Shown one piece after another: positions 31,655 to 61,034 of a stretch of 64,000 nt of DNA (position 1 is its first letter; each line of letters opens with the position of its first letter). The stretch comes from Eubacteriales bacterium (GTDB taxonomy: Bacteria; Bacillota; Clostridia; Lachnospirales; Lachnospiraceae): NCBI GenBank assembly GCA_030536575.1, contig JAUNPS010000010.1, positions 50,061 to 114,060 on the forward strand, given 5' to 3'. The notes beneath the pieces are model-generated. The model was given only the letters and a program-made list of their open reading frames with translations, ran no database searches and was not told the origin of the DNA. Position numbers and translations under genes: made by a program.

Positions 31655-32503
31655 ATGGAATATCTTACGTTAAACAATGGCCTTTCCGTTCCCGCGATTG
31701 GCTTTGGCACTTATAAGGCGGCCGTCGAGGAAGGCGAAACCGTCCTCCAAAATGCCATCCGGACAGGCTACCGCTATTTTGACACCGCTTCTTTTTATGA
31801 AAATGAAGAAATTTTAGGAAAGGCCCTGCGGGAATCCGGGCTGCCCCGCCAGGAATTTTTCGTGGCATCGAAGGTCTGGAAGACGGAAATGGGTTATGAG
31901 AATACGAAAGCCGCGCTGGATCGTTCCCTGAAGCGCCTTGGAATGGATTATCTGGATTTTTATCTGGTACACTGGCCGAAAGCGGATTTGGAGGATACCC
32001 AATGGGCGTTTCGGCTTTCGGAAACCTGGCGGGCAATGGAAGACGCGCAGAAAGCCGGGAAAATCCGCGGACTTGGCGTATCAAACTGCCTGCCGCATCA
32101 CTTAGAAGTCATTTTAGAATCCGGTACGATTATGCCTGCAATTGATCAGATTGAATTTCATCCGGGATATTTACAGCTTGAAACGGTTGAGAAGTGTCAA
32201 AGTCTTGGAATCCAGGTACAGGCATGGAGCCCCATGGGACGCGCACGGGTGCTTCAGGACGCGCTCCTGTGTGAAATGGCGGAAAAATACGGCGTCAGCA
32301 CCGCTCAATTATGCCTGAAATTTGCCCGCCAAATGCAGGTCATGCCCCTTCCCAAAGCCACCGCCCCCGAAAGAATGCTTCAAAACCTCAGCTTAGATGG
32401 CTTTACGATCTCCGCCGAAGACGTGGAAGCTCTCAAAAACATGCCGCGAACCGGATGGTCTGGGGAGCATCCGGACAGGGAACGCGTTCCGGCCAACAGC
32501 TAA
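31655..32503 (+). CDS. Aldo/keto reductase
   Basis: 282-residue NADPH-dependent oxidoreductase of the AKR superfamily, (alpha/beta)8 barrel. Family signatures: GFGTYKA at the start, DTASFYENEEILGKALRESG with catalytic Asp and Tyr, VASKVWKTEMGY with catalytic Lys, LVHWPKAD with His, GLGVSNC, AIDQIEFHPGY and LPKATAPERMLQNL for the cofactor phosphate. AGGAGG precedes the ATG. Physiological aldehyde or ketone substrate unknown. It converges on the surface-protein array and ends at a bidirectional terminator. Confidence 0.93.
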   Translation: MEYLTLNNGLSVPAIGFGTYKAAVEEGETVLQNAIRTGYRYFDTASFYENEEILGKALRESGLPRQEFFVASKVWKTEMGYENTKAALDRSLKRLGMDYLDFYLVHWPKADLEDTQWAFRLSETWRAMEDAQKAGKIRGLGVSNCLPHHLEVILESGTIMPAIDQIEFHPGYLQLETVEKCQSLGIQVQAWSPMGRARVLQDALLCEMAEKYGVSTAQLCLKFARQMQVMPLPKATAPERMLQNLSLDGFTISAEDVEALKNMPRTGWSGEHPDRERVPANS

Positions 32504-32510
32504 AGACGAA

Positions 32511-32552
32511 AAAACTGCCGCAGTACGCATCTCCGCATGCCACGGCAGTTTT
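32511..32552. terminator. Bidirectional terminator
   Basis: Stem AAAACTGCCG (32511-32520) with CGGCAGTTTT (32543-32552), followed by CC then TATCTTATTTT on plus. Lies 7 bases after the aldo/keto reductase stop and 6 bases beyond the end of the surface-protein gene on minus, so it serves both. Confidence 0.75.
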
Positions 32553-32558
32553 CCTATC

Positions 32559-34910
32559 TTATTTTACAGTAACCGTGCAGGTAGCCTTCTTCCCGCTTGC
32601 CGCCTTCACTGTAATCGTCGCCTTCCCCTTCTTCAATGCCTGAATCTTCCCCTTACTGTTCACCTTCACAATCTTCGCATTCGAAGATTTCCAGGTCAGC
32701 TTATCATTCGCCGTCAGAGGATTCCTCGTTACCTGAAGCGTCAGCGACTTCCCTTTCGCCAGCGTCACCTTCTTCTTATTCAGCGTCAGCTTCGTCGTCT
32801 TCACCGGGTTCTTCTGCACCTTCACGGTACACTTCGCCACGGCTCCGCTCTTCATCGTCACCGTGATCACCGTCGTCCCGGTTTTCTTCGCCGTAATCTT
32901 TCCGGTTCGGCTGTTCACCGCCGCCACCGCAGGCTTCGAAGACGTCCACTTTTTCACCGAATCCCCGCTGGTCTTCTTCTTAATCGTCAGCGCAGTCGTC
33001 GATTTCTTCACCTGAAGCATCAGCGTACTCACATTCAGCTTCACGGACGCCGATTTCTTCGCAATGGTCTTGGACTCCGTTTTACCGCACACGGTGCAGG
33101 TTCGTTTCTTCGTCCCCGTTGCAAAAATCGTGGCTGCTTTCGTCGTCTTCCAGCTTCCATATTTATGGGCGGCAAGCGCTATTTCCTTCTGCGACAGAAC
33201 CGTTCCGCAGGTCGTGCATTTCGTCTGCGTCAGACCTTTTTCCGTACAGGTCGCTGCTTTTACCGTCACAGCCGTTCCCGCCGTATGGCCCGTCGCTGCA
33301 ATGGACTGCGTTTCCACAACTTTCCCGCACACCTTACACGTCTTCTGCTGACTCCCCGCTTCTGTACAGGTCGCCGCTTTTACCGTCGTCCACTCGCCCG
33401 CCGTATGGTTCGTCGTATCCGCCGGAATCGTCTCGGTACGAATCGACGCCTCGCAGACGCTGCATTTCAGCACGCGGCTTCCCGTATCCTTACACGTTGG
33501 GGCCTTTGTCTGCACCCATGAGCCTTCGGTATGCGTCACCTGCACGATACAGGTTGCCTGAATCACCGATTCTGCTTTGCTGACCGCCGTAATCGTAGCC
33601 GTTCCTGCTTTGGTTCCAGCCGTAATCTTTCCCTGGCTGTCCACCTGAGCAATGTCCGAATCCGAACTAATCCAGGTTACTTCCTGTTGATACGTCGTAT
33701 TTGTCGGCGCGTAGGACACTGTCAAAGTCTGGCTGTTTCCGTGCGCCAGTGAAATTGCGCCTGTGTTCAGCGCAATTCCGGTAAGCGGAATCTGATCTTC
33801 CTGCGAATAAGCTTCGGTTGCCAGCGTCGGCATAACAAACGGATCATAGTCGACCCCGGAAAAGACAGACAGCATCATATGATCCTGTGCAATTGTCTTT
33901 CCATTAAACCCATTGCTGTTCGACCCGGCAAGGAAATATTCCCTCCGGATTCCGCTGCTCTGGTCATCCCAGGTCGCATCCAGCAAATACCATTTCCCGT
34001 CCCCCATCTGAATCACGTTCCACATATGATCCGCACTTACCGTTCCGTCCGCATTTAAATTCGGACTTCCCAAAATCAACGCACATGGAATCGAAAAACG
34101 GTCGCAGAGAATTTTTACAATCTTCGCATAACACTCGCAGACACCTTCATGGTTATACTTGCTTAAAAGCCCCCCTGTTATCGTATGTTCATACCTGATA
34201 CCTGTGCTGGCATGGCCATACGTAACCAGCTCAACCACATAATCATGAATCGCCTTAACCGTCTCATAACGGCTGGAATTCGCCCGCCGTTCCCGAATCG
34301 CAGCGTCCGCTGCCTCCAAAGCACTGTTTACCAGAGACGCTTCCTCCAGAATCCCATCATAATATGCATACGCCTGAAGCCGCAGGGTTTTCAGCGGAAT
34401 CTGATAAGAACCGGTTTTCGACGGACTGTAGGCAAACGGCCAGCTATACCGAACACTATAGATCCAATACGCATCGCTCCGATCCTTTTTAAATGCATCG
34501 ATTGCCTTCTGCGCATCCTTACAGAGTTCCGTTTTCGCGGCCAAATACGATGCCTCTTCATAAAAGGCCCCTGACGTTACGGATGCTGTTGTCGTGGTAA
34601 AAATGTACGGCGAGGGCAGTTCCAATTCCAACCACTGCTCGTTGTCTTCCCGGTACAGCTTCATATCCGCCGCGCAAAGCGTATCATAAATCTTCCTCGC
34701 ATTCCCGGTAAGCTGATCCCCGAAATTCCCCGAAAATGTCCCGGTTGTCCGCGACCTCGCCGCCGAGCCCCTTTGCCCCGACGCATCCGAGCCATTCGAA
34801 ACCGCCTCATCGCTGACAATCGTCCGCTTTTCATCCGCCGACGCCGTCACCCCAAACGCCAGCAGACACACCAGCGCCATCAACAACATCCAAAAACGGC
34901 TCTTCTTCAT
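32559..34910 (-). CDS. Secreted transglutaminase-like/BIG2 protein, paralogue A (4 CxxC units)
   Basis: 783 residues. Signal peptide MKKSRFWMLLMALVCLLAFGVTASA; helical region with FSGNFGDQLTGNARKIYDTLCAADMKLY; transglutaminase-like core with Cys258 (EGVCECYAK), His295 (ADHMWNV) and Asp311 (LLDATWDD); a BIG2 domain (about 372-455); four CxxC repeat units (about 456-615) of the form ATCTEAGSQQKTCKVCGKVVET...GH; then two Lys-rich BIG2 domains to the end. No LPXTG motif or C-terminal anchor is seen, so cell attachment may be through the basic C-terminal BIG2 domains. Last of four tandem paralogues, 112 bases after paralogue B. AGGCATGGGATGAGGG before the ATG is a weak ribosome binding site. Confidence 0.88.
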   Translation of the reverse strand: MKKSRFWMLLMALVCLLAFGVTASADEKRTIVSDEAVSNGSDASGQRGSAARSRTTGTFSGNFGDQLTGNARKIYDTLCAADMKLYREDNEQWLELELPSPYIFTTTTASVTSGAFYEEASYLAAKTELCKDAQKAIDAFKKDRSDAYWIYSVRYSWPFAYSPSKTGSYQIPLKTLRLQAYAYYDGILEEASLVNSALEAADAAIRERRANSSRYETVKAIHDYVVELVTYGHASTGIRYEHTITGGLLSKYNHEGVCECYAKIVKILCDRFSIPCALILGSPNLNADGTVSADHMWNVIQMGDGKWYLLDATWDDQSSGIRREYFLAGSNSNGFNGKTIAQDHMMLSVFSGVDYDPFVMPTLATEAYSQEDQIPLTGIALNTGAISLAHGNSQTLTVSYAPTNTTYQQEVTWISSDSDIAQVDSQGKITAGTKAGTATITAVSKAESVIQATCIVQVTHTEGSWVQTKAPTCKDTGSRVLKCSVCEASIRTETIPADTTNHTAGEWTTVKAATCTEAGSQQKTCKVCGKVVETQSIAATGHTAGTAVTVKAATCTEKGLTQTKCTTCGTVLSQKEIALAAHKYGSWKTTKAATIFATGTKKRTCTVCGKTESKTIAKKSASVKLNVSTLMLQVKKSTTALTIKKKTSGDSVKKWTSSKPAVAAVNSRTGKITAKKTGTTVITVTMKSGAVAKCTVKVQKNPVKTTKLTLNKKKVTLAKGKSLTLQVTRNPLTANDKLTWKSSNAKIVKVNSKGKIQALKKGKATITVKAASGKKATCTVTVK

Positions 34911-35022
34911 CCCTCATCCCATGCCTTTCCGCGGCGGCCGCCATCACGTTGGCCGCCGCCCGCAAATGATACCTAAACGATTTCCCTCACTGAGCCGACG
35001 CCGCTCCGTCAGCACTCCTGCC
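34911..35022 (-). repeat. Spacer A/B: decayed copy of the glycosidase 3' end
   Basis: Identical in sequence to spacer B/C (37609-37720) as far as I can read. It aligns in blocks with the 3' end of the six-hairpin-like gene (42360 to about 42507): CTCATCCC, CCTTTCCGC, CCATCACrTTGGCCGCCGCCC, CTAAAC, TTTCCCTCrCTG and CCGCTCC..CAGCAC, with deletions between them. The frame is destroyed. The 9-bp stem at 34931-34939/34951-34959 arises from the GCG-GCG-GCC alanine codons and later drift. Confidence 0.8.
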
Positions 35023-37608
35023 CTATTTTACCGTAACCGTGCAAGTAGCCTTCTTCCCACTCGCCGCCTTCACCGTAATCGTCGCCTTTCCTTTCTTCAA
35101 TGCCTGAATCTTCCCCTTACTGTTCACCTTCACAATCTTCGCATTCGAAGATTTCCAGGTCAGCTTATCATTCGCCGTCAGAGGATTCCTCGTTACCTGA
35201 AGCGTCAGCGACTTCCCTTTCGCCAGCGTCACCTTCTTCTTATTCAGCGTCAGCTTCGTCGTCTTCACCGGGTTCTTCTGCACCTTCACGGTACACTTCG
35301 CCACGGCTCCGCTCTTCATCGTCACCGTGATCACCGTCGTCCCGGTTTTCTTCGCCGTAATCTTTCCGGTTCGGCTGTTCACCGCCGCCACCGCAGGCTT
35401 CGAAGACGTCCACTTTTTCACCGAATCCCCGCTGGTCTTCTTCTTAATCGTCAGCGCAGTCGTCGATTTCTTCACCTGAAGCATCAGCGTACTCACATTC
35501 AGCTTCACGGACGCCGATTTCTTCGCAATGGTCTTGGACTCCGTTTTTCCGCACACAGTACAGGTTCGTTTCTTCGTCCCCGTTGCGAAAATCGTGGCTG
35601 CTTTCGTCGTCTTCCAGCTTCCATATTTATGAGCGGCAAGCGCAATTTCCTTCTGCGACAGAACGGTTCCGCAAGTCGTGCATTTCGTCTGCATCAAACC
35701 TTTTTGCGTACAGGTCGCCGCCTTTACCGTCACAGCCGTTCCTGCCGTATGGCCTGTCGCTTCAATGGTCTGCGTTTCCACTACTTTTTCGCACACCTTA
35801 CACGTCTTCTGCTTGCTTCCCGTTTCTGTACAGGTCGCCGCCTTTACCATCGTCCATTCTCCTACCGTATGGCCCGTCGCTTCAATGGACTGCGTTTCCA
35901 CTACTTTTCCGCACACCTTACACGTCTTCTGCTGGCTTCCAGCTTCCGTACAGGTCGCTGCTTTTACCGTCGTCCACTCGCCCGCTGTATGACCTGTCGC
36001 TTCAATGGACTGTGTTTCCACTACTTTCCCGCACACCTTACACGTCTTCTGCTTGCTTCCTTCCTCCGTGCAAGTCGCCGCTTTTACTGTCGTCCACTCT
36101 CCCGCCGTATGGTTCGTCGTATCCGCCGGAATCGTCTCGGTACGAAGCGACGCCTCGCAGACACTGCATTTCAGCACCCGGCTTCCCGTATCCTTACACG
36201 TCGGAGCCTTTGTCTGCACCCATGAGCCTTCGATATGAGTTACCTGTACGGTACAAGTTGCCTGAATCGTCGATTCTGCTTTGCTGACCGCTGTAATCGT
36301 GGCCGTTCCTGCTTTCGTTCCAGCCGTAATCTTTCCTTGGCTGTCCACCTGGGCAATGTCCGAATCTGAACTGATCCAGGTCACTTCCTGCTGATACGTC
36401 GTATTTGCCGGCGCGTAGGACACTGTCAAAGTCTGGCTGTTTCCATGCGCCAGAGAGACCGCGCCTGCGTTCAGCGTAATTCCGGTAAGCGGAATCTGGT
36501 CTTCCTGCGAATAAGCTTCCGTTGCCAATGTCGGCATCACAAACGGTTCATAGTCAACCCCGGAAAGGGTGGACATCATCATATGATCCTGCGCAATCGT
36601 CTTCCCATTGAAACCAATGCTGTTCGACCCGGCAAGAAAATATTCCCTTTGGATTCCGATGCTCTGGTCATCCCAGGTCGCATCCAACAGATACCATTTC
36701 CCGTCCTCCATCTGAACAACATTCCACATATGATCCGCATTCAGCGTCCCATCTGTATTTACTTTGGAACCCCCGATAATCAACGCACACGGAACTGAAA
36801 AACGGTCACAGAGAATCTTTACAATCTTCGCATAACTCTCACAGACCCCCTCATGGTTATACTTGCTTAAAAGCCCTCCTGTTATCGTATGTTCATACAT
36901 GATACCTGCGCCGGCATGGCCATACGTAACCAATTCCGCCACATAATCATGAATCGCCTTGACCGTCTCATAACGGCTGGAATCCCCTCGCCGTTCCCGG
37001 ATTGCCGCGTCCGCCGCCGCCAGCGCACTGTTTACCAGAGAGGTTTCCTCCAGGATCTCATCATAGTATGCACGCGCCTGAAAATTCAAAGTTCTCAGCG
37101 ATATCTGACAAGTACCGGTTCCTCCATATGAAAAAGACCAGCTATACTGGATACTGCCTATCCAATATACATCGCTCCGATCGTTTCGAAACGCATCAAT
37201 CGCCTTCTGCGCGTCTTTACTCAGTTCTGCTTTCGCAGCCAAATAAGATGCCTCCTGCTTAAAGGCCCCTGATGCCATGGACTCCGCCGTCGTGGTAAAA
37301 ACATATGGCGTGGGAAGTGCCACCTCTACCCACTGTTCGGAATCTACCGTATACAGTTTCATATCCGCCGCGCAAAGCGTATCATAAATCTTCCTCGAAT
37401 TCCCGGTAAGCTGATCCCCAAAATTTCCCGAAAATGTCCCGGTTGTCCGCGAACGCGCCGCCGAACCTCTCTGCCCCGTCGCATCTGAGCTATTTGAAAC
37501 CGCCCCATCACTGACAATCGTCCGCTTTTCATCCGCCGACGCCGTCACCCCAAACGCCAGCAGACACACCAGCGCCATCAACAACATCCAAAAACGGCTC
37601 TTCTTCAT
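35023..37608 (-). CDS. Secreted transglutaminase-like/BIG2 protein, paralogue B (6 CxxC units)
   Basis: 861 residues, same plan as paralogue A: signal peptide (MKKSRFWMLLMALVCLLAFGVTASA), helical domain, transglutaminase-like core with EGVCESYAK, ADHMWNV and LLDATWDD, BIG2, CxxC repeats, two BIG2 domains. It has six CxxC units: GSWVQTK, three GEWT(T/M)VKAATCTE units, GTAVTVK and GSWKTTK. Each unit has the order C, CxxC, H, which could bind zinc or form disulfides. From the GSWKTTK unit on, protein and DNA are almost identical to A, C and D, whereas the N-terminal domain differs at many positions. Confidence 0.88.
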   Translation of the reverse strand: MKKSRFWMLLMALVCLLAFGVTASADEKRTIVSDGAVSNSSDATGQRGSAARSRTTGTFSGNFGDQLTGNSRKIYDTLCAADMKLYTVDSEQWVEVALPTPYVFTTTAESMASGAFKQEASYLAAKAELSKDAQKAIDAFRNDRSDVYWIGSIQYSWSFSYGGTGTCQISLRTLNFQARAYYDEILEETSLVNSALAAADAAIRERRGDSSRYETVKAIHDYVAELVTYGHAGAGIMYEHTITGGLLSKYNHEGVCESYAKIVKILCDRFSVPCALIIGGSKVNTDGTLNADHMWNVVQMEDGKWYLLDATWDDQSIGIQREYFLAGSNSIGFNGKTIAQDHMMMSTLSGVDYEPFVMPTLATEAYSQEDQIPLTGITLNAGAVSLAHGNSQTLTVSYAPANTTYQQEVTWISSDSDIAQVDSQGKITAGTKAGTATITAVSKAESTIQATCTVQVTHIEGSWVQTKAPTCKDTGSRVLKCSVCEASLRTETIPADTTNHTAGEWTTVKAATCTEEGSKQKTCKVCGKVVETQSIEATGHTAGEWTTVKAATCTEAGSQQKTCKVCGKVVETQSIEATGHTVGEWTMVKAATCTETGSKQKTCKVCEKVVETQTIEATGHTAGTAVTVKAATCTQKGLMQTKCTTCGTVLSQKEIALAAHKYGSWKTTKAATIFATGTKKRTCTVCGKTESKTIAKKSASVKLNVSTLMLQVKKSTTALTIKKKTSGDSVKKWTSSKPAVAAVNSRTGKITAKKTGTTVITVTMKSGAVAKCTVKVQKNPVKTTKLTLNKKKVTLAKGKSLTLQVTRNPLTANDKLTWKSSNAKIVKVNSKGKIQALKKGKATITVKAASGKKATCTVTVK

Positions 37609-37720
37609 CCCTCATCCCATGCCTTTCCGCGGCGGCCGCCATCACGTTGGCCGCCGCCCGCAAATGATACCTAAACGATTTCCCTCACTGAGCCGACGCC
37701 GCTCCGTCAGCACTCCTGCC
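37609..37720 (-). repeat. Spacer B/C: decayed copy of the glycosidase 3' end
   Basis: Same sequence as spacer A/B, which implies that the unit spacer plus gene was duplicated recently and the spacers have not diverged since. Shares the same blocks with the 3' end of the six-hairpin-like gene. Confidence 0.8.
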
Positions 37721-39703
37721 CTATTTTACCGTAACCGTGCAAGTAGCCTTCTTCCCACTCGCCGCCTTCACCGTAATCGTCGCCTTTCCTTTCTTCAATG
37801 CCTGAATCTTCCCCTTACTGTTCACCTTCACAATCTTCGCATTCGAAGATTTCCAGGTCAGCTTATCATTCGCCGTCAGAGGATTCCTCGTTACCTGAAG
37901 CGTCAGCGACTTCCCTTTCGCCAGCGTCACCTTCTTCTTATTCAGCGTCAGCTTCGTCGTCTTCACCGGGTTCTTCTGCACCTTCACGGTACACTTCGCC
38001 ACGGCTCCGCTCTTCATCGTCACCGTGATCACCGTCGTCCCGGTTTTCTTCGCCGTAATCTTTCCGGTTCGGCTGTTCACCGCCGCCACCGCAGGCTTCG
38101 AAGACGTCCACTTTTTCACCGAATCCCCGCTGGTCTTCTTCTTAATCGTCAGCGCAGTCGTCGATTTCTTCACCTGAAGCATCAGCGTACTCACATTCAG
38201 CTTCACGGACGCCGATTTCTTCGCAATGGTCTTGGACTCCGTTTTACCGCACACGGTGCAGGTTCGTTTCTTCGTCCCCGTTGCAAAAATCGTGGCTGCT
38301 TTCGTCGTCTTCCATGCGCCTTCGATATGAGTCACCTTCACGGTACAGGTTGCCTTAATCGTCGATTTCGCTTTGCTGACCGCTGTAATCGTGGCCGTTC
38401 CTGCTTTCGCTCCAGCCGTAACCTTTCCCTGACTGTCCACCTGGGCAATACTTGAATCCGAACTGATCCATGTCACTTCCTGCTGATCCGTCGTATTTGC
38501 CGGCGCATAGGATACCGTCAAAGTCTGGCTGCTTCCGTGCGCCAGAGAAACCGTGCTTGTATTCAGCGTAATCCCGGTAAGCGGAATATCCTCCTCGTTC
38601 CGGTAAGCCTCGGATGCCAACGTCGGCATGACAAACGGATCATAATCAACTCCGGAAAACGAGGACACCATCATATGATCCTGCGCAATCGTTCGCCCGT
38701 CAAAACCAATGCTGTTCGACCCGGCAAGGAAATATTCTCCCGCAATTCCCCAGTCCTGGTCATCCCAAGTCGCATCCAGCAAATACCATTTCCCATCTTC
38801 CATCTGGACAACGTTCCACATATGATCCACGTTCAGCGTCCCGTCCGCATTTAACTCAGAACCTCCCGCGATCACCGCACATGGAACCGAAAAACGGTCG
38901 CAAAGGGTCTTTACAAGCTTCGCATAACACTCGCAGACACCCACATGGTTATACTTGCTTAAAAGCCCTCCCGTTATCGTATGCTCATACGCGTTAAACT
39001 GATTGGCGTTTCCATACGTAATCAGCTCAGCCGCATAATCATGAATCGCCTTGATCGTCTCGTAACGGCTGGAATCCACCCGCCGTTCCCGGATCGCAGC
39101 GTCCGCCGCCGCCAACGCGCTGTCTACCAGAGACGCCTCCTCCAGAATTCCATCATAATATGCATACGCCTGAAAATACAGGGTTTTCAACGGAATCTGA
39201 CAGGAGCCGGCGGATGCCTCATACGTGAACGAATAATCATACCGGATCCAGTAGATCCAATATGCATCGCTCTGATCCCTTCGAAATGCATCGATCGCTT
39301 TCTGTGCATCCTTGTGCAGTTCATTATAAGCAGCCAAGTAGGACGCTTCCTCATAATAGGTTCCTGATTCCAGAGCCTCCGTCGTCGTCGTAAAAACATA
39401 CGGCGAAGGCAGTTCCACTTCCAACCACCGATCGGAATCTACCGTATACCCCTTCATATCCGCCGCACAAAGCGCATCATAAATCTTCCTCGCATTCCCG
39501 GTAAGCTGATCCCCGAAATTCCCCGAAAATGTCCCGGTCGTCCGCGATCTCGCCACAGACCCTTTCTGCCCCAAAGCATCCGAGCCATTCGTGACTACAA
39601 TATCGCCTACAATCGTCCGCTTTTCAGCCGCCGAAGCCGTCATCCCAAACGCCAGCAGACACACCAGCGCCATCAGCAGCATCCAAAAACGTCTCTTCTT
39701 CAT
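37721..39703 (-). CDS. Secreted transglutaminase-like/BIG2 protein, paralogue C (1 CxxC unit)
   Basis: 660 residues. Signal peptide MKKRRFWMLLMALVCLLAFGMTASA, helical domain, transglutaminase-like core (VGVCECYAK, VDHMWNV, LLDATWDD), BIG2, then only the last CxxC unit (WKTTKAATIFATGTKKRTCTVCGKTE) and two BIG2 domains. The step from BIG2 (VTHIEGAW) straight into the last unit looks like a clean in-frame deletion of five units between repeated sequences. Start set at ATG 39703; a GTG one codon earlier is also possible. Confidence 0.88.
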   Translation of the reverse strand: MKKRRFWMLLMALVCLLAFGMTASAAEKRTIVGDIVVTNGSDALGQKGSVARSRTTGTFSGNFGDQLTGNARKIYDALCAADMKGYTVDSDRWLEVELPSPYVFTTTTEALESGTYYEEASYLAAYNELHKDAQKAIDAFRRDQSDAYWIYWIRYDYSFTYEASAGSCQIPLKTLYFQAYAYYDGILEEASLVDSALAAADAAIRERRVDSSRYETIKAIHDYAAELITYGNANQFNAYEHTITGGLLSKYNHVGVCECYAKLVKTLCDRFSVPCAVIAGGSELNADGTLNVDHMWNVVQMEDGKWYLLDATWDDQDWGIAGEYFLAGSNSIGFDGRTIAQDHMMVSSFSGVDYDPFVMPTLASEAYRNEEDIPLTGITLNTSTVSLAHGSSQTLTVSYAPANTTDQQEVTWISSDSSIAQVDSQGKVTAGAKAGTATITAVSKAKSTIKATCTVKVTHIEGAWKTTKAATIFATGTKKRTCTVCGKTESKTIAKKSASVKLNVSTLMLQVKKSTTALTIKKKTSGDSVKKWTSSKPAVAAVNSRTGKITAKKTGTTVITVTMKSGAVAKCTVKVQKNPVKTTKLTLNKKKVTLAKGKSLTLQVTRNPLTANDKLTWKSSNAKIVKVNSKGKIQALKKGKATITVKAASGKKATCTVTVK

Positions 39704-39774
39704 CACTCATCCCCATACCTTTCCGCAATAGTCTCCATCGCTGGGGCGCTGCCGCTCCGGCAGCACCCCCTATC
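39704..39774 (-). repeat. Spacer C/D: two blocks of the glycosidase 3' end joined at TCCATC
   Basis: The spacer repeats the last 30 or so bases of the six-hairpin-like gene (ACTCATCCCCATACCTTTCC onwards) and then jumps to a block that in the gene lies about 90 bases further in (CCATCGCTGGGGC..CCGCTCC..CAGCAC). The join falls in TCCATC, present at both places in the gene, which indicates a deletion by microhomology. This spacer differs from A/B and B/C and is the least decayed. Confidence 0.8.
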
Positions 39775-42360
39775 TTATTTTACAGTAACCGTGCAAGTGG
39801 CCTTCTTCCCACTCGCCGCTTTCACTGTAATCGTCGCCTTTCCTTTCTTCAAGGCCTGAATCTTCCCCTTACTGTTCACCTTCACAATCTTCGCATTCGA
39901 AGATTTCCAGGTCAGCTTATCATTCGCCGTCAGAGGATTCCTCGTTACCTGAAGCGTCAGCGACTTCCCTTTCGCCAGCGTCACCTTCTTCTTATTCAGC
40001 GTCAGCTTCGTCGTCTTCACCGGGTTCTTCTGCACCTTCACGGTACACTTCGCCACGGCTCCGCTCTTCATCGTCACCGTGATCACCGTCGTCCCGGTTT
40101 TCTTCGCCGTAATCTTTCCGGTTCGGCTGTTCACCGCCGCCACCGCAGGCTTCGAAGACGTCCACTTTTTCACCGAATCCCCGCTGGTCTTCTTCTTAAT
40201 CGTCAGCGCAGTCGTCGATTTCTTCACCTGAAGCATCAGCGTACTCACATTCAGCTTCACGGACGCCGATTTCTTCGCAATGGTCTTGGACTCCGTTTTT
40301 CCGCATACGCTACAGGTTCGTTTCTTCGTCCCTGTTGCAAAAATCGTAGCCGCTTTCGTCGTCTTCCAACTTCCATATTTATGGGCGACAACCGCAATTT
40401 CCTTCTGCGACAGAACCGTTCCGCAGGTCGTGCATTTCGTCTGCATCAACCCTTTTTGCGTACAGGTCGCTGCTTTCACCGTTACAGCCGTTCCCACCTT
40501 ATGGCCTGTCGCTTCAATGGTCTGCGTTTCCACTACTTTTCCGCACACCTTACACGTCTTCTGCTGACTCCCCGCCGCTGTGCAAGTCGCCGCTTTTACT
40601 GTCGTCCACTCGCCCGCCTCATGACCTATCGCTTCAATGGTCTGCGTTTCCACTACTTTCCCGCACACCTTACACGTCTTCTGCTGGCTTCCAGCTTCCG
40701 TACAAGTCGCCGCTTTTACTGTCGTCCACTCGCCCGCCTCATGGCCTGTCGCTTCAATGGACTGCGTTTCCACTACTTTTCCGCACACCTTACACGTCTT
40801 CTGCTGGCTTCCAGCTTCCGTGCAAGTCGCCGCTTTTACTGTCGTCCACTCGCCTGCTGTATGGTTCGTCGTATCCGCCGGAATCGTCTCGGTGCGGAGC
40901 GACGCCTCGCAGACGCTGCATTTCAGCACCCGACTTCCCGTATCCTTACACGTCGGAGCCTTTGTCTGCACCCATGAGCCTTCGATATGCGTCACCTGCA
41001 CGGTACAGGTTGCCTTAATCGTCGATTCTGCTTTGCTGACTGCCGTAATCGTGGCCGTTCCTGCTTTGGTTCCAGCCGTAATCTTTCCCTGGCTGTCCAC
41101 CTTGGCTACGTCCGAATCCGAACTGATCCAGGTCACTTCCTGCTGATCCGTCGTATTTGCCGGCACATAGGACACCGTTAATGTCTGGCTGCTTCCGTGC
41201 GCCAGAGAAACCGCGCTTGTGTTCAGCGTAATCCCGGTAAGCGGAATATCCTCCTCTTTCAAATAAGCCTCGGATGCCAACGTCGGCATGATAAACGGAT
41301 CATAATCACATCCAGAAAAAGAGGACACCATTATATGATCCTGCGCAATCGTTCTCCCGTCAAAACCAATGCTGTTTGACCCGGCGAGGAAATATTCTCT
41401 CATAATTCCCCAGCTCTGATCATCCCAGGTCGCATCCACCAAATACCATTGCCCATCTTCCATCTGAACAACGTTCCATATATGATCCACGTTCAGCGTT
41501 CCGTCCGCATTTAACTCAGAACCTCCCAAAATCAACGCACACGGAACCGAAAAACGGTCGCAGAGAGTCTTTACAATCTTCGCATAACTCTCGCAGACCC
41601 CTTCATGGTTATACTTGCTTAAAAGCCCTCCTGTTATCGTATGTTCATACATGATACCCTCGTCGGCATGGCCATATGTGACCAATTCCACCACATAATC
41701 GTGAATCGCCTTAATCGTCTCATAACGGCTGGAATCCGCCCGCCGTTCCCGGATTGCAGCGTCCGCCGCCGCCAAAGCGCTTTCTACCAAAGACGCTTCC
41801 TCCAGAATCCCATCATAGTATGGCCAGGCCTGAAGCTGCACGGTTTTCAACGGTATTTGATAGGAGCCGGTTCCTCCATACGTAAACGGGCTGCCATACC
41901 CAAAGTTGAATATCCAATATGCATCGCTCTGATCCTTTTTAAATGCATCAATCGCCTTCATTACATCCTTGTGCAGTTCGTTAGCAGCAGCCAAATAGGA
42001 TGCTTCCTCACAATAGGCTTCCGATTCCACGGCCTCCGTCGTCGTAGTAAAAACATACGGCGATGGCAGTTCCACTTCCAACGACCGCTCGGAATCTGCC
42101 GTATACAGCTTCATATCCGCCGCACAAAGCGCATCATAAATCTTCCTCGCATTCCCGGTAAGCTGATCCCCGAAATTCCCCGAAAATGTCCCGGTCGTCC
42201 GCGATCTCGCCACAGACCCTTTCTGCCCCAAAGCATCCGAGCCATTCGTGACTACAATATCGCCTACAATCGTCCGCTTTTCAGCCGCCGAAGCCGTCAT
42301 CCCAAACGCCAGCAGACACACCAGCGCCATCAGCAGCATCCAAAAACGTCTCTTCTTCAT
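39775..42360 (-). CDS. Secreted transglutaminase-like/BIG2 protein, paralogue D (6 CxxC units)
   Basis: 861 residues; domain plan as in paralogue B, with EGVCESYAK, VDHIWNV and LVDATWDD as the transglutaminase-like triad and six CxxC units (GSWVQTK, three GEWTTVKAATCT units, GTAVTVK, GSWKTTK). The ATG at 42360 shares its A with the stop codon of the upstream glycosidase gene (TGATG), so D is translationally coupled to the importer 3 operon, unlike A to C, which follow spacers. This is probably the founder position of the array. N-terminal half is closest to paralogue C (same MKKRRFW signal peptide and VGDIVVTNGSDALGQ). Confidence 0.88.
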   Translation of the reverse strand: MKKRRFWMLLMALVCLLAFGMTASAAEKRTIVGDIVVTNGSDALGQKGSVARSRTTGTFSGNFGDQLTGNARKIYDALCAADMKLYTADSERSLEVELPSPYVFTTTTEAVESEAYCEEASYLAAANELHKDVMKAIDAFKKDQSDAYWIFNFGYGSPFTYGGTGSYQIPLKTVQLQAWPYYDGILEEASLVESALAAADAAIRERRADSSRYETIKAIHDYVVELVTYGHADEGIMYEHTITGGLLSKYNHEGVCESYAKIVKTLCDRFSVPCALILGGSELNADGTLNVDHIWNVVQMEDGQWYLVDATWDDQSWGIMREYFLAGSNSIGFDGRTIAQDHIMVSSFSGCDYDPFIMPTLASEAYLKEEDIPLTGITLNTSAVSLAHGSSQTLTVSYVPANTTDQQEVTWISSDSDVAKVDSQGKITAGTKAGTATITAVSKAESTIKATCTVQVTHIEGSWVQTKAPTCKDTGSRVLKCSVCEASLRTETIPADTTNHTAGEWTTVKAATCTEAGSQQKTCKVCGKVVETQSIEATGHEAGEWTTVKAATCTEAGSQQKTCKVCGKVVETQTIEAIGHEAGEWTTVKAATCTAAGSQQKTCKVCGKVVETQTIEATGHKVGTAVTVKAATCTQKGLMQTKCTTCGTVLSQKEIAVVAHKYGSWKTTKAATIFATGTKKRTCSVCGKTESKTIAKKSASVKLNVSTLMLQVKKSTTALTIKKKTSGDSVKKWTSSKPAVAAVNSRTGKITAKKTGTTVITVTMKSGAVAKCTVKVQKNPVKTTKLTLNKKKVTLAKGKSLTLQVTRNPLTANDKLTWKSSNAKIVKVNSKGKIQALKKGKATITVKAASGKKATCTVTVK

Positions 42361-44507
42361 CACTCATCCCCATACCTTTCCGCAACAGCCTCCATCACAT
42401 TGGCCGCCGCCCACAAATTGTAACTAAACCACGAGCTAAAACCATTTCCCTCGCTGTCCCGTTCCACCGTCAATCCATCGCTGGGGCACCACCGCTCCGA
42501 CAGCACGCCATACCGCCCATACCCCGTCTTTTCCGGATACAGCTCCAGCGTCTGCATCATCCACGCCGTCGAATCCAGCGCCCGCTCCCGGTAATACCCA
42601 TCCCCGGTCACCTTCGCCAACTCATACAGATCCGAGTCCACCAGCACGCCCATCGGATGGATATGCGGGTTCGAAATCGAAGTCACCGACCCGCCGCAGG
42701 CATTCCACCCGTCGCACACCGGCGCAAATTCCGGCCTCGTGGGATACGCGTACCTCCACAAAAACTCGTACTCCGCGCCGTCCTTCCAACACTCCAGAAA
42801 CTCCGGCTCCCCGGTCTGTTCATAGAGCAGACGACTTCCCCGGATAAAGGCCAGATTTCCTTCCTCATCGATGGATTTCCAGGTATCCATCGGCGCGCCG
42901 TAGCAATTCAAATCCTTAACAAAAGTGTGATAATACCGAAGCGCCTTTTTCGCCGGTTCCAGATAGCCTCCATCCCCGGTCAGCTCCGCCAGATACGCCA
43001 GGGACGGCACGAACCAGCATCCGGCAAACCCGCTCCAGTCCAGCACCTTTTTTTCGCTGATGGAATACGTGTAGCCAAACGCTCCGTCTTCCCGCTGGAG
43101 GGAAACCACCGTATCCAGTACCTTCCGGCACACATCCAGCCAATGTTCTTTCCACGGACGGCCGTTCTTTTTCAGATACGCAATGGTTTTCAGCATGTAA
43201 TGCACCGCGCTTCCCACCGTATACGCGCAATGACAGTCCTTCACCAGCCCGTAATACGTCCACCAGCCGTTCACCCGGCTTCCGGATTCGTCGATGGGGG
43301 CCATCAGGTCGTACAGCAGGCCCGACTTTTCATTGTAGCAATCTGCAATCCGATCCAGATACCTCTCCCCATCCATCGCCGCTGCAAGGGGTTCCTTCGC
43401 CTCCTCGCCCAGCAGTTCACGGGCAAGCACCAGCGGATATGCCAGAATGGCCCCGCCAGTCCAGCCGATTTCCACCACATTCCGCCAGGGCTTCAAGACC
43501 GCGTTTCCCGGCGGCTGGCAGTTTTCGTTCGTGTACTCTCCGGCCTCTTTGTCATAATTCTCATAGCAGAAAGTTTCCAGCATTCCTTTCAATGCCTCGC
43601 GGAAGCTCTTCTGATACGCGGCACGATGATGCACTTTTTCATAAACAGCGCGAATAATCGCATGAAGGGCCGTCCGTTCCTTGCCGGTTCGCATGAAAAT
43701 GGAGCCGCTCGCCTCTGCTTTTCGGGCTGTATCCCGCAGGGAAGGGGTCGCAATGGAACGGTTTTTGAACGTAATCGGGTCATTCGTATAACCAAGCGTG
43801 ACCCCGAACCGGTCTGGAAGCTCTGCGAACACGCCGTTTCGGATGTAGCCGCGGCTGTTGTCCTCCGTATCGGAATACGGCTGGATAAAGATTGCCGCCG
43901 CGCCGTTTTTACAGCAGAGTGCCGACAAAGGCATCGCCGCGCGGTCTGCGCGGAATTCCCAGCGGGGCGAACAGAAAGCGCATTCCTTGTGGTCTTCGGT
44001 CAGAAGGGGGAATTCGCCAAGCTTCGCTTCTTCTGCGTGGTTGTCCCCGAAAATGTTGCACGGAATGACGTGGTAATAATCCTCCTGATCCGGCAGGGAA
44101 AGCTGGATGCGAAGCTGCGTCTCATAATCCGCCTCAAAGCCAACCGTATAGTCCAGCCCGGTTTCCGTCTCGCAGAAACTTCCATAATAGCGCGCCCCGG
44201 CAGTCTCAAAGGAAAATCCATCCTCCCGCACCGCCGCATCCGGAATCTTCTTCCAGATATCCTGCTTCTGGTAAAACAGCTCCAGCTTTAACTCCAGCCC
44301 GGCCGCGCCAGCTCCGCACATTCCGGCAGCTCCATTCTCGCCACTGGCCGCGCCACCTCCGCACATCCTGTCGTCTGCCCCAGCGCTGGCCGCGTCACCT
44401 CCGGGCGTTCGGGTCAGCCCGCCGCTGGCCGTGTCAGTCCCGCACATTCCATCAGCCCCGACGCTGGCCGCGTCCGGCCCGCCAACCTCTCTCCTCTTTA
44501 ACTCCAT
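42360..44507 (-). CDS. Putative six-hairpin glycosidase-like protein (importer 3 operon)
   Basis: 715 residues, no signal peptide. Residues 5-70 are a Gly/Ala-rich repetitive segment (repeating DAASxGADxMCG and GAAG); the sequence after it, LELKLELFYQKQDIW, repeats the first residues MELK, as if a low-complexity block had been inserted after codon 4. Then a beta-rich domain (to about 270) and a helical domain with WTGGAILAYPLVLARELLG, DWSGFAGCWFVPSLAYLAELTGDGGYLEPAKKAL and DGWNACGGSVTSISNPHIHPMG, in the style of (alpha/alpha)6 enzymes. Not assigned to a GH family. GGAGGTG precedes the ATG at 44507, which lies 1 base after the GH43 stop. Its 3' end has been copied into the spacers of the downstream array. 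Confidence 0.62.
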   Translation of the reverse strand: MELKRREVGGPDAASVGADGMCGTDTASGGLTRTPGGDAASAGADDRMCGGGAASGENGAAGMCGAGAAGLELKLELFYQKQDIWKKIPDAAVREDGFSFETAGARYYGSFCETETGLDYTVGFEADYETQLRIQLSLPDQEDYYHVIPCNIFGDNHAEEAKLGEFPLLTEDHKECAFCSPRWEFRADRAAMPLSALCCKNGAAAIFIQPYSDTEDNSRGYIRNGVFAELPDRFGVTLGYTNDPITFKNRSIATPSLRDTARKAEASGSIFMRTGKERTALHAIIRAVYEKVHHRAAYQKSFREALKGMLETFCYENYDKEAGEYTNENCQPPGNAVLKPWRNVVEIGWTGGAILAYPLVLARELLGEEAKEPLAAAMDGERYLDRIADCYNEKSGLLYDLMAPIDESGSRVNGWWTYYGLVKDCHCAYTVGSAVHYMLKTIAYLKKNGRPWKEHWLDVCRKVLDTVVSLQREDGAFGYTYSISEKKVLDWSGFAGCWFVPSLAYLAELTGDGGYLEPAKKALRYYHTFVKDLNCYGAPMDTWKSIDEEGNLAFIRGSRLLYEQTGEPEFLECWKDGAEYEFLWRYAYPTRPEFAPVCDGWNACGGSVTSISNPHIHPMGVLVDSDLYELAKVTGDGYYRERALDSTAWMMQTLELYPEKTGYGRYGVLSERWCPSDGLTVERDSEGNGFSSWFSYNLWAAANVMEAVAERYGDE
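44290..44495 (-). repeat. Low-complexity in-frame block at the glycosidase N-terminus
   Basis: Imperfect repeats around GCTGGCCGCGTC on plus (coding GAASxGA or DAASxGA on minus). Composition is far more GC-rich than the rest of the gene. Flanked in the protein by MELK and LELK. Confidence 0.65.
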
Positions 44508-44508
44508 C

Positions 44509-46053
44509 TCACACCTCCGTATTCTCCAGCACCCTGTCCGCATCCACGCAAACCCGCGCCGCCGTCACACTCCCCGCCTCGCCGCATCCGCAATGCACCG
44601 CAAACAGCCCAAACTTCACACCAACCCAACGCCCCGGCGTAAACGTCACCTTACTCCCCACCGGACGCCAAACCCCGGCCACATCCGGGAAATAAAACTG
44701 CCCCGTACCATCCGCATACACCTGCATCCCCAGATGATGAACACCATCCGCCACCGGCGCAAACTCCGCCATCTGCTCGGTTTCACCCATATTTCCGCAG
44801 ATCTGCACCAGATGCACCGCGTCGCCCACCTTCTTCAGCGCCAGCGCCGTATAGAACAACCCCTGCGAAACCATTCCGGCCAAATCGCCGTTTTTCATAT
44901 CCCGCGTATTAATCTCCGCCGTCACCGCAAAGGTCGGCGCCGTCCATTTCTGAAGCAGAAGATTCGGCGCATCACACAGCGCCCCGTCCAACGGCTGCGC
45001 ATACAGCCGAATCCCCGGCTTCTCCATCCGATACCATTCCGACTTATAATTCGCATTCCATTGCCACTGAAGTCCCAGCTTCTCCCCCGAAAAATCATCA
45101 CTGTCCTCCGGCGAACACGGCGCATAAGAAGCCCCCACATCCGGCTTTTTCCAAACAGATACCGGCATGCCGTAGCCCTCGCCGTCATCCTCGCCGATCA
45201 CCGGCCAGTCATTCTCCCATTTCATCGGCTGTAAATGAACAATCCGCCCCGCATTGCCCACATCCTGAAAATGCACGAACCAGTCCTCACCCGACGGCGT
45301 ATCCACCCAACCGCCCTGATGAGGCCCATTAATCCGGGAATCCCCCTGAATCATCACAATCTTCTCTTCATACGGCCCATAAATATTCCGGGAACGAAGA
45401 GCCGTCTGCCAGCCCGCTTTCACGCTTCCGGCGGGCGCCAGGATATAATAATACCCGTTTCGCTTATACATTTTCGGCCCCTCGATGGTTGGCTGGGTAT
45501 CATGGCCGTCAAACACATGCTGCCCTTCGCCGATCAGAGCCGTCCCTTCCGCATTCATCGGGCTGATGTGCAGAATACTCTTAATCCCGCTGCGGCTCTT
45601 CGCGAATCCATTGACCAGATACGCCTGGCCGTCCTCATCCCAGAACGGGCACGGATCGATCCAGCCCTTCCCTTCCTTCACGCAGACCGGCGCCGACCAG
45701 GGGCCCGCCGCATCCTTTGCCTTACACATAAAAATGCCTTCGTCCGGCATCGGATAATACACATAAAATTCCCCGTTGTGATAGCGGATCGCCGGAGCCC
45801 AAACGCCATGCCCGTGCTGGGGAACCTCATACCCCGGCTCCGGAATCTGCTCCAGCACATAAGAAAGCATCCGCCAGTTCACCAGGTCTTTCGAGTGCAG
45901 CACCGGAAGCGCCGGGCTGTTGCAAAAGCTGGACGCCACCAGATAATAATCTTCCCCGACCCGGATCACATCCGGATCAGAATAGTCCGTATATAAAATC
46001 GGATTCCGGTAAGTACCGTCTCCATTGTCCGCATTCCAATTAAATTTTCCCAT
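44509..46053 (-). CDS. Glycoside hydrolase family 43 enzyme (beta-xylosidase/arabinofuranosidase type)
   Basis: 514 residues, cytoplasmic. Five-bladed beta-propeller with the GH43 triad: base Asp26 in YSDPDVIRV, pKa-modulating Asp in KGWIDPCPFWDEDG, and acid Glu in DTQPTIEGPKMYKRNGYYY; C-terminal beta-sandwich from about 330 (SDDFSGEKLGLQWQWNANYKSEWYRMEKPGIRLYAQPL), as in two-domain xylosidases and arabinofuranosidases. AGGGAG precedes the ATG. Suggests that importer 3 brings in xylan- or arabinan-derived oligosaccharides (inference). A terminator-like stem separates it from the permease gene. Confidence 0.9.
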   Translation of the reverse strand: MGKFNWNADNGDGTYRNPILYTDYSDPDVIRVGEDYYLVASSFCNSPALPVLHSKDLVNWRMLSYVLEQIPEPGYEVPQHGHGVWAPAIRYHNGEFYVYYPMPDEGIFMCKAKDAAGPWSAPVCVKEGKGWIDPCPFWDEDGQAYLVNGFAKSRSGIKSILHISPMNAEGTALIGEGQHVFDGHDTQPTIEGPKMYKRNGYYYILAPAGSVKAGWQTALRSRNIYGPYEEKIVMIQGDSRINGPHQGGWVDTPSGEDWFVHFQDVGNAGRIVHLQPMKWENDWPVIGEDDGEGYGMPVSVWKKPDVGASYAPCSPEDSDDFSGEKLGLQWQWNANYKSEWYRMEKPGIRLYAQPLDGALCDAPNLLLQKWTAPTFAVTAEINTRDMKNGDLAGMVSQGLFYTALALKKVGDAVHLVQICGNMGETEQMAEFAPVADGVHHLGMQVYADGTGQFYFPDVAGVWRPVGSKVTFTPGRWVGVKFGLFAVHCGCGEAGSVTAARVCVDADRVLENTEV

Positions 46054-46083
46054 CGTTCAATCTCCCTTCAAATGTTCGAAATG

Positions 46084-46140
46084 AAAAAAGCCCGAACCTG
46101 CCCGGCCTGGAATCCCTCCAAGTAACCGGGCCGTTCAGGC
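46084..46140 (-). terminator. Strong intercistronic terminator between permease and GH43 genes
   Basis: On minus: arm CCGGGCCGTTCAGGC region (46126-46140) pairs with GCCCGAACCTGCCCGG (46090-46105) with one or two bulges, followed by six T (46084-46089). This has all parts of an intrinsic terminator inside the operon and would reduce expression of the glycosidases and surface proteins relative to the importer, or act as an attenuator. Confidence 0.75.
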
Positions 46141-46151
46141 TCACTTCTATT

Positions 46152-46997
46152 TTAACCCTTCAAGCCGCTGCTTGCAATTCCTTCTACGAAATATTTTTGC
46201 GCCGCAAAGAACAGAATGATCAGCGGCAGCACCGAAACGAACGCCATTGCAAGCACCTTGCCCCAGACAACCACCGATTCCGCATCCAGCGAAAGCCGCA
46301 GAGCCAGGGATACGGTAAATTTCTTCACCGAGTTAATGTAAATCAACGAGTTAAAGTAATCATTGTACGTCCACATAAACTGGAACAGCGCCGCGGAGAA
46401 CAGAGCCGGTTTCATCAGCGGAAGCAAGATCTGATAAAATACCCGGAACGTTCCGCATCCGTCGATATACGCCGATTCGTCCAGATCCTTGGGAAGCCCC
46501 CTCATAAACTGGATCAGCTGGTAGATAAAGAACGGATAGCACGCCAGGATCGCCGGAATGTAAAACGGCAGATAAGAATCCAGCCAATGGAACTTATTGT
46601 ATAAGGTATACCGCGGGATGATGATAACCGAGTTCGGCAGCATCAGCGTTGCAATCAGGATGGCAAACAGGATTTTCTTTCCCGGAAAACGGAACCGCGC
46701 AAATCCGTATGCCACCAGCGAGCAGGAAATCAGCGTAAACAGGGTCGTCGGCAGAACCATCAGCGCCGTATTCAGGAAATATTTCGAATACGGAATGACC
46801 GTCCCGTTCCAACCGTCAATGTAGTTCTGAAGGCTGAAGGAATTCGGCAGAAGCGCCGTCGTACCGAAAATTTCTTCGTTCGTCTTAAAGGTTGCAAAGA
46901 ACATCCAGATGATCGGATAAAGCATTGCAAAACCGATAATAAAAATCACCACGTAAGAAAGTACCAGGTTTATTTTCTTTTTTGTCTTTTTCGTCAT
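46152..46997 (-). CDS. Sugar ABC transporter permease, MalG-like (importer 3)
   Basis: 281-residue membrane permease. Features: basic N-terminus MTKKTKKKINL, first helix (VLSYVVIFIIGFAMLYPIIWMFFATFKTNEEIF), ATLMLPNSVIIIPRYTLYNKFHWLDSYLPFY, EAA loop DLDESAYIDGCGTFRVFYQILLPLMKPALFSAALFQFMWTYNDYFN, and ending KYFVEGIASSGLKG. GGGGAGG precedes the ATG. The EAA loop has Ser and Cys at positions often Ala, within normal variation. Confidence 0.93.
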   Translation of the reverse strand: MTKKTKKKINLVLSYVVIFIIGFAMLYPIIWMFFATFKTNEEIFGTTALLPNSFSLQNYIDGWNGTVIPYSKYFLNTALMVLPTTLFTLISCSLVAYGFARFRFPGKKILFAILIATLMLPNSVIIIPRYTLYNKFHWLDSYLPFYIPAILACYPFFIYQLIQFMRGLPKDLDESAYIDGCGTFRVFYQILLPLMKPALFSAALFQFMWTYNDYFNSLIYINSVKKFTVSLALRLSLDAESVVVWGKVLAMAFVSVLPLIILFFAAQKYFVEGIASSGLKG

Positions 46998-47014
46998 GGT
47001 TCTTTCCTCCCCGC

Positions 47015-47923
47015 TTAAAAGTCTCCGCCGTCTTCATAATATACCCAGGAAGACGAGGAGCGGAATAACAACAGTGTTACAACAAGAATCAGTGCAAACA
47101 TTACCCAAGAAATAGCACTTGCATAGCCCATCTTGAAGTAGGAGAAACCTTCTTTGTACAGTTTCAGACCCATGACATAAGTAGCCTTCAGCGGGCCGCC
47201 GTTGGTGATAACCGATGCGGAGGTGTAGGTTTGCAATGCGTTGATAGTCTGCATGATCATGTTAAAGAAAATGATCGGCGTAATCTGCGGTACGGTAATG
47301 TAGATAAATTTCTTGATTTTGCCTGCGCCGTCGATGGAAGCCGCTTCATACAGAGAAGAGGGCACCTGCTTTAACGCCGCCAGGAACATAACCATCGAGG
47401 AACCGAACTGCCAGATTTCCAGCATACAGATAGTCACAAGGGCTACCTTCGGATCGCCGAGCCAGCTGATTCCGGTAATGCCGATTTTGGCCAGCAATGC
47501 GTTGATGACGCCGTTGTCCATGAACATAACTTTCCACAGCATTGCGATCGCAATACTTCCGCCGAACAGGGACGGAATATAGTACAGGGTACGGATCAGG
47601 TTAATTCCCTTTAAATTCCGGTTCAGGAATACCGCAACGGCCAGCGCCAGAAGGAGCTTTCCGGGAACGGTCAGCAACGAGAATTTAATCGTTACCCATA
47701 AGGACGTCAGGAATTCACTGTCCGAGGTAAACAGTTCTACGTAGTTCTTGATTCCGGCCCAGATCGGTTTCGAAGTAATCTGGTAATCCGTAAACGAATA
47801 ATAAAGGGAGCTTAAAAATGGATACAACTGTAACACGCACAGACCGATCAGCCACGGGGCAAGATAAATAAATGCCTGATAATCCCGCTTCCGGTATGCA
47901 CGAACTTTTTTCTTTTTCTGCAT
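47015..47923 (-). CDS. Sugar ABC transporter permease, MalF-like (importer 3)
   Basis: 302-residue membrane permease, partner of the MalG-like protein 17 bases downstream. First helix FIYLAPWLIGLCVLQLYPFLSSLYYSFTDYQI, then YYIPSLFGGSIAIAMLWKVMF and the EAA loop LYEAASIDGAGKIKKFIYITVPQITPIIFFNMI. GGGAGG precedes the ATG at 47923 (MQKKKKV); ten extra upstream residues in frame have no ribosome binding site. Confidence 0.93.
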   Translation of the reverse strand: MQKKKKVRAYRKRDYQAFIYLAPWLIGLCVLQLYPFLSSLYYSFTDYQITSKPIWAGIKNYVELFTSDSEFLTSLWVTIKFSLLTVPGKLLLALAVAVFLNRNLKGINLIRTLYYIPSLFGGSIAIAMLWKVMFMDNGVINALLAKIGITGISWLGDPKVALVTICMLEIWQFGSSMVMFLAALKQVPSSLYEAASIDGAGKIKKFIYITVPQITPIIFFNMIMQTINALQTYTSASVITNGGPLKATYVMGLKLYKEGFSYFKMGYASAISWVMFALILVVTLLLFRSSSSWVYYEDGGDF

Positions 47924-47969
47924 AACAATTCCTCCCAAAACCGCTTTTTTCACGGCGGTTTATATAGTT

Positions 47970-48003
47970 ATGGCTGCCGCATGTAGCCTGATGCGGCAGC
48001 CAT
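47970..48003 (-). promoter_or_regulatory. Hairpin between binding protein and permease genes (importer 3)
   Basis: Perfect 13-bp stem ATGGCTGCCGCAT/ATGCGGCAGCCAT with an 8-base loop, 30 bases after the binding-protein stop and 46 bases before the permease start. No T-run. Third example in this window of a stable stem at the same operon position. Confidence 0.75.
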
Positions 48004-48033
48004 TGTCAAGTTTCGTCGTATGTGAAGTTCTTT

Positions 48034-49356: not shown

Positions 49357-49523
49357 AGTTGGGGTTCCTCCTTTTTCTGATACGTTCTTTTCAGATAAGA
49401 AAATTTTAGCACAAAATTTACAAAATTTTAAGGAGTTGAAGTTTTGATTTTTTCTCTTTTTTTGTGATATTTAACGGAAAAAGGTATCATTTCTTGTCAT
49501 TATCCGTAGATATGGACAATTTT

Positions 49524-57812: not shown

Positions 57813-57814
57813 CG

Positions 57815-59328: not shown

Positions 59329-59441
59329 GCGGAATCCTTCCTCTCCAAAAACGATCCCGCGCCGTCGGACTTCGTTTTCACTTTCTGTGCGCCGCGTTGG
59401 CCTTCCTGGCGGGTAGGGCAATGTTCTATCTGTCAGGAAGA

Positions 59442-59464
59442 CCGGGGAGGGGAGGCCTCCCCGG
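59442..59464 (-). promoter_or_regulatory. Hairpin after the backbone pilin gene
   Basis: Stem CCGGGGAGG/CCTCCCCGG with a 5-base loop, 21 bases downstream of the pilin stop and 114 bases before the class C sortase start. The tract after it on minus is TCTTCC, so only partial termination is likely; it would favour pilin over sortase. Confidence 0.55.
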
Positions 59465-59484
59465 CGTATTTGGGTTAAATCTTT

Positions 59485-60981: not shown

Positions 60982-61034
60982 CTCTTTCCATCCTTTCTAT
61001 TAAGTTTAGATATATAACTACTCACTGCCACGTA

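Follow-up and report, generated by a model that had tools for sequence, protein, structure and literature searches.

We analysed a 64,000-nucleotide (nt) stretch of the genome of an Eubacteriales bacterium of the Lachnospiraceae (GenBank assembly GCA_030536575.1, contig JAUNPS010000010.1, positions 50,061 to 114,060 of the forward strand; hereafter the window), in which four paralogous genes for transglutaminase-like proteins, A–D, lie in tandem. All four are intact minus-strand open reading frames (ORFs), and each has a signal sequence and a start of its own. The original prediction, made from the sequence alone, had described them as a surface-antigen cassette able to make new variants by recombination. 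The genes and the catalytic core of D are as follows.

32559-34910, minus strand: gene A, 783 amino acids (aa); three full CxxC units and a cap; putative catalytic Cys258
35023-37608, minus strand: gene B, 861 aa; five full units and a cap
37721-39706, minus strand: gene C, 661 aa; plan as in D, minus a 606-nt full-unit block; cap only
39775-42363, minus strand: gene D, 862 aa from a GTG start, or to 42360, the originally predicted end, from the adjoining ATG
41431-41742, minus strand: transglutaminase-like core of D (Pfam Transglut_core), residues 208-311; triad Cys257/His294/Asp310

In D, the signal peptide is followed by an N-lobe and transglutaminase-like core (residues 60–372), a Big_2 domain, five full CxxC units of the three-Cys, one-His (C3H) type, the cap, and two further Big_2 domains. 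The Pfam scan found Transglut_core (PF01841) in all four proteins at 30.3–33.4 bits, against a curated cut-off of 23, and three stretches of Big_2 (PF02368) in each protein at 88.4–108.8 bits, against a cut-off of 22.8. The Cys-His-Asp triad of D is kept at the equivalent positions of A, B, and C and was invariant in all 30 sequences of an alignment composed of A–D and 26 of the 72 homologues from the named loci described below. Residues 1–372 of A, B, and C are 77–85% identical to those of D, and residues 51–372 of all four proteins are acidic, with net charges of −11 to −27. The matches listed by Foldseek for full-length D were chiefly Ig-like chains. The N-terminal domain of D has an enzyme fold, and we infer that it is located at the surface.

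The CxxC units form a stalk of bead-like repeats, which is located in the four genes as follows.

40375-40980, minus strand: bead stalk of D, units 1–5 (unit 1, 126 nt; the rest, 120 nt)
40255-40374, minus strand: cap unit of D; CxxC kept, first Cys and His missing
38201-38320, minus strand: cap unit of C, the sole CxxC unit of this gene
35623-36228, minus strand: bead stalk of B, units 1–5
33159-33524, minus strand: bead stalk of A, three full units (first, one middle, and penultimate)

A full unit has the form C-x9-CxxC-x13-H, and the last unit is a degenerate cap that retains CxxC without the first Cys and the His. Counted over the whole proteins, A–D contain 4, 6, 1, and 6 CxxC motifs, as originally predicted, and these counts resolve into 3, 5, 0, and 5 full units. 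When all units were compared, the first, penultimate, and cap units were 91–97% identical in DNA to their counterparts in the other genes, and differently placed units within one gene were only 39–56% identical. Besides the block that is absent from C, the middle class alone varies in number, with a single copy in A but three in each of B and D (85–96% DNA identity). C probably lost its full-unit block from a five-unit gene. Among 137 non-duplicate CxxC sites, the upstream Cys was present at 110, the His at 101, and both at 99; both were present at 13 of the 17 sites of A–D, the other four being the caps. The last unit was a cap without the first Cys in all 13 stalks examined in the host genome (A–D and nine others). 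An AlphaFold2 (AF2) model of three units had nine strands, three per unit, at a predicted local distance difference test (pLDDT) score of 94.6, the reference fold being itself predicted. The three-unit alignment comprised 18 of 20 three-unit windows and five from the window. The beads are probably zinc-binding.

We searched the array for exact repeats and compared the spacers between the genes with the gene upstream of D.

39854-40299 (D), 37800-38245 (C), 35102-35547 (B), and 32638-33083 (A), minus strand: 446-nt tract identical in all four genes
37511-38245, minus strand: 735-nt exact repeat of C tail, spacer, and B head, equal to 34813-35547 (B tail, spacer, and A head)
42109-42385, minus strand: 277-nt exact repeat of D head and 22 nt upstream, equal to 39452-39728 (C head)
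34911-35022, minus strand: 112-nt spacer between A and B, identical to 37609-37720; relic of the 3′ end of gene 42360-44543, a duplication scar
39707-39774, minus strand: 68-nt spacer between D and C; relic of the end of gene 42360-44543 and a 12-bp GC-rich hairpin that lacks a T run

The identical tract in all four tails, together with the diverged heads, bears out the prediction that the C-termini are nearly identical in DNA and the N-terminal domains differ. The homogenised tract exceeds the C-terminus, because it spans the spacers and the head of the next gene across gene borders. In the ungapped alignment, the longest invariant run was 446 columns, compared with a maximum of 60 over 2000 column shuffles. 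The mean silent divergence in windows of 40 codons was 0.19 at the head, reached its maximum of 0.57 in codons 121–160 of the N-lobe, was 0.22–0.29 in four of the five stalk windows (the fifth, based on a single pair, gave 0.40), and was 0.00 in codons 721–800. Given the silent divergence of the gene bodies and sites taken as independent, the absence of any silent change in approximately 109 silent core sites has a P of 10^-14.6 to 10^-25.5 per pair. Over the final codons, A and D are again divergent, unlike the internal genes B and C, which are the most alike at the 3′ end. The peak in the N-lobe and the zero in codons 721–800 indicate that recombination homogenised the tails. Homogenisation of the C-termini by gene conversion, as had been proposed, or by unequal crossing-over is strongly supported by these comparisons.

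The genealogy shifts along the array genes. The sites supporting the splits AB|CD, AC|BD, and AD|BC numbered 34/0/0 in codons 1–137, 13/14/12 in codons 138–292, 27/0/3 in codons 293–462, and 0/2/2 in codons 463–864, with block limits that were set after inspection of the sites and with alignment gaps near the block of codons 138–292. Both spacer types aligned to the last codons of the upstream gene with scores of 76 and 58, compared with maxima of 27 and 25 in 1000 mononucleotide shuffles each. The spacers thus hold relics of this gene, and a duplication breakpoint lay in its 3′ end. A history of tandem duplication and recombination is well supported by the sequence of the array. A tandem trio elsewhere in the host genome that carries the same C-terminal module is not homogenised (63–83% DNA identity in the last six windows, 62–83% in the last eight); this trio is a weak control because divergence is much greater among its heads, which may have ceased to recombine.

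The ratio of nonsynonymous to synonymous divergence (dN/dS) was 0.07–0.41 outside the tail as a regional average in every pair that differs, and 0.14–0.41 in the head, N-lobe, and core, the N-lobe giving values up to 0.41; four sequences are too few for single-site tests. These ratios indicate that selection on the array genes is purifying on average. The N-termini had been proposed to be diversifying or drifting: drift agrees with these values, and diversifying selection was rejected as the cause of divergence in the N-lobe, given that silent divergence is also maximal there.

The stalk and basic tail were found in nine further proteins of the host genome with other heads, weaker matches lying outside this count. 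Eight of the nine carriers were scanned with Pfam (L102 over its last 2083 residues; L104 was outside the scan), which identified two transglutaminase-like cores, one GDSL lipase, and five proteins without an enzyme domain at E 0.001. The tails of A–D have a net charge of +44, with 44 Lys, 3 Arg, and 3 acidic residues in the last 199 residues, and those of the nine other carriers have net charges of +27 to +43. No LPXTG-like motif was found in any of these 13 proteins. Positions 57180-63929 of the window hold a sortase-assembled pilus locus with two sortases, an LPXTG pilin backbone, and a 964-aa SpaA-domain protein, so that the host has sortases though A–D are without the signal. A second tandem array is located on contig C78 of the host genome (L105, 2859-9074), where three secreted proteins with diverged unknown heads have a cap and Big_2 tail as in A–D.

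The array follows sugar-utilisation genes on the same strand. Upstream of it lie genes for a GH43 protein, two ATP-binding cassette (ABC) permeases, a solute-binding protein, and a histidine kinase, and farther out lies one for a response regulator.

42360-44543, minus strand: upstream gene, 727 aa; its stop overlaps the ATG of D as TGATG
32508-32556, minus strand: strong intrinsic terminator with a T run, immediately following A (−26.3 kcal/mol, z −6.0)

Neither Pfam nor NCBIfam gave a match to the 727-aa protein at E 0.001, and its gene had no match at E 1e-30 in either of the other congeneric species compared (G001 and G002). The protein is encoded downstream of the GH43 gene, has an odd N-terminus rich in Gly, Ala, and Asp, and is possibly an undescribed glycoside hydrolase. 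Folding was calculated for the terminator stretch and the two spacer types; that of the 112-nt spacer was unremarkable (z −1.3), and the 12-bp hairpin between D and C could grade the expression of C, B, and A below that of D. A consensus scan of 32300-50000 for sigma-70 promoters and terminators gave counts near those of shuffles and was not used; therefore, co-transcription of the array is only what we infer. Elsewhere in the window, positions 22032-26915 encode a 1627-aa protein with two arylsulfotransferase (ASST) stretches.

Relatives were collected from the family and from 70 named loci, 68 of which held 72 transglutaminase-like ORFs on re-scanning. The tail was present in 10 of these 72 ORFs, and at least one CxxC occurred anywhere in 19 (range 0–17). 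Two such ORFs per locus were found at four of the 68 loci, three of these being adjacent pairs. The survey of tandem pairs covered loci other than L001–L030 (which include sister-species loci) and copies other than four of the array. Head matches at E 1e-30 occurred in 10 of 397 genomes of the family, the host's own included, with four copies in the host only; genome G323 had two head copies, on different contigs. The array is absent from both other species of the genus compared, and the genus is rich in transglutaminase-like cores (14 matches in the host, 10 and 11 in the other two). A mobile origin was considered and not adopted. A tblastn search of plasmids with the D head gave two records with weak, core-only matches, and a search of phages with D gave eight unannotated faecal records at 29–40% identity; neither gave any sign of a mobile array. 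These records, MT835477.1 (69813-70406) and seven more labelled 'Bacteriophage sp.', match the bead/Big_2 or transglutaminase-like part and may represent phage cargo or mis-sorted bacterial DNA.

We lean towards the explanation that A–D form a small cysteine-enzyme family whose members are stalked and probably held at the wall, differ in stalk length, are co-expressed, and are under purifying selection. It is well supported by the sequence that a gene for a secreted transglutaminase-like protein underwent head-to-tail duplication downstream of a further gene, the last codons of which persist as the junction relics. The copies diverged while recombination kept copying the tail, spacer, and neighbouring head, so that silent divergence is greatest in the N-lobe and zero in the tail core. 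Bead number differs through copies of a single 120-nt unit class and through the presence or absence of the whole block. Each protein is predicted to be a Cys-His-Asp enzyme, either a peptidase or isopeptide-forming, with an acidic head. A stalk made up of 0, 3, or 5 three-stranded beads, stabilised by zinc, and a cap would keep this head off the cell. The strongly basic Big_2 pair may bind anionic wall polymers without sortase. The four genes would be co-expressed with the upstream sugar-utilisation genes and would provide related heads that act on different substrates at different reach.

Alternatively, the genes could serve to create new surface variants through recombination in response to immune or phage pressure, and the real mosaic history, the differences in unit number, and the secretion of the proteins with a signal sequence would suit such an antigen cassette. 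However, recombination is strongest in the least variable part of the protein, dN/dS is 0.07–0.41 outside the tail, and each of the four copies is complete, with its own start, and lies on the same strand as the others. The unit types are moreover position-specific, no partial donor copy was found at E 1e-5 in the draft host genome, which is 90.7% complete and where the remaining matches cover the C-terminal module or core only at 35–59% identity, and no recombinase was found among the 34 ORFs scanned of the 121 listed for the window. These results indicate that the antigen cassette is not supported and is very unlikely. That the cluster is redundant and evolves in concert, its head differences and bead counts being without function, is somewhat unlikely: tandem paralogues with long identity recombine passively, and the likeness of the internal genes B and C at their 3′ ends and the upper N-lobe dN/dS are as expected of such duplicates, but all four ORFs are intact, the triad is kept in each, and regional dN/dS is below 0.5 throughout.

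Barring an assembly error, the recombination is real; a mis-join over the 735-nt repeat is possible. The host assembly is a draft of 100 contigs (completeness 90.7%, contamination 3.1) with exact repeats of this length, so slightly different tails might have been collapsed to one consensus or copies mis-ordered. The cap units, however, differ between genes, and A and D differ from B and C in the last codons; therefore, the tails were not wholly collapsed. The gene bodies are also distinct and the window contains no N, and we regard an artefact as having little probability. In regards to the stalk, CxxC is a typical motif of thiol-disulfide proteins, and a secreted location could allow disulfides. 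Redox or disulfide switches in place of zinc beads are nevertheless improbable, given that a third Cys and a His accompany 99 of the 137 CxxC sites and that the matching region of an immunoglobulin A protease (IgAse) has predicted tetrahedral metal sites, with no disulfides seen in the part of the source available (PMC12237041).

A wider proposal, which we advance tentatively as possible rather than probable, is that the host has a genome-wide display kit. The cap and two polycationic Big_2 domains would be a sortase-independent wall anchor, the string of zinc beads would set the reach, and unrelated heads (transglutaminase-like, GDSL lipase, or unknown) would be plugged in; recombination in the array would keep the anchor and stalk interchangeable and the length retunable by 120-nt steps, with the heads spared and specialising. 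Should this be true, a basic Big_2 pair may let gut Clostridia display many enzymes that lack sortase signals, at a reach set by zinc beads. The array is also a clear natural case in which recombination homogenises a shared tail and the heads diverge.

No paper on the present system emerged from literature searches that covered transglutaminase-like Big_2 proteins, tandem conversion arrays, and bead stalks. Streptococcus pyogenes TglA (PDB 9crn), for which the literature search likewise gave no paper, is a transglutaminase-like domain protein whose match covers residues 49–324 of the 379-residue solved chain; unlike in A–D, a bead stalk and Big_2 tail were not seen in that chain. The beads resemble the ZBD1/ZBD2 spacer of the Thomasclavelia ramosa IgAse (phmmer E 3.1e-8, D 507–623 to chain 859–981; best stretch 29.8 bits, bias 12.0). 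In the available part of the report, this spacer is predicted to consist of three-stranded antiparallel subdomains and is proposed to act as a spacer with structural zinc (PMC12237041). The IgAse differs from A–D in its metallopeptidase head, its terminal sortase motif, and its spacers of three and two subdomains versus 0–5 beads and a cap; the ligands predicted for four of its five sites, as far as that part describes them, are two His plus two Cys, versus C3H in the array units.

Adjacent co-directional transglutaminase-like copies also occur in the clostridial tandem pairs L031, L037, and L045, where bead number differs within the pair (0 and 17 CxxC in L031). Unlike the array, these have two copies with 38–43% amino-acid identity. 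L037 is the only pair showing both tails, which are not homogenised (48–67% in the last eight DNA windows), since the second copy of L045 is cut by the contig end and the first copy of L031 is without a tail. The 17-CxxC protein of L031 (9749-14173) has many of its motifs in two alternating unit types and adjoins the paralogue with none.

Surface proteins of Porphyromonas gingivalis resemble the array in that their domains are reshuffled by recombination and allelic exchange; in the portion of that work available, the diversity is described between strains, and the array is known from one genome (PMC5266723). The Periscope Proteins (Sgo_0707, SasG, Aap, and Rib), as characterised in the accessible part of their description (PMC8201768), have an N-terminal functional domain, a variable repeat number, and a C-terminal attachment, as predicted for A–D. 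Their trait of tandem, highly similar repeats is seen here in the middle unit class only, the other units being unlike one another, and the DNA identity of these middle units would allow unequal recombination.
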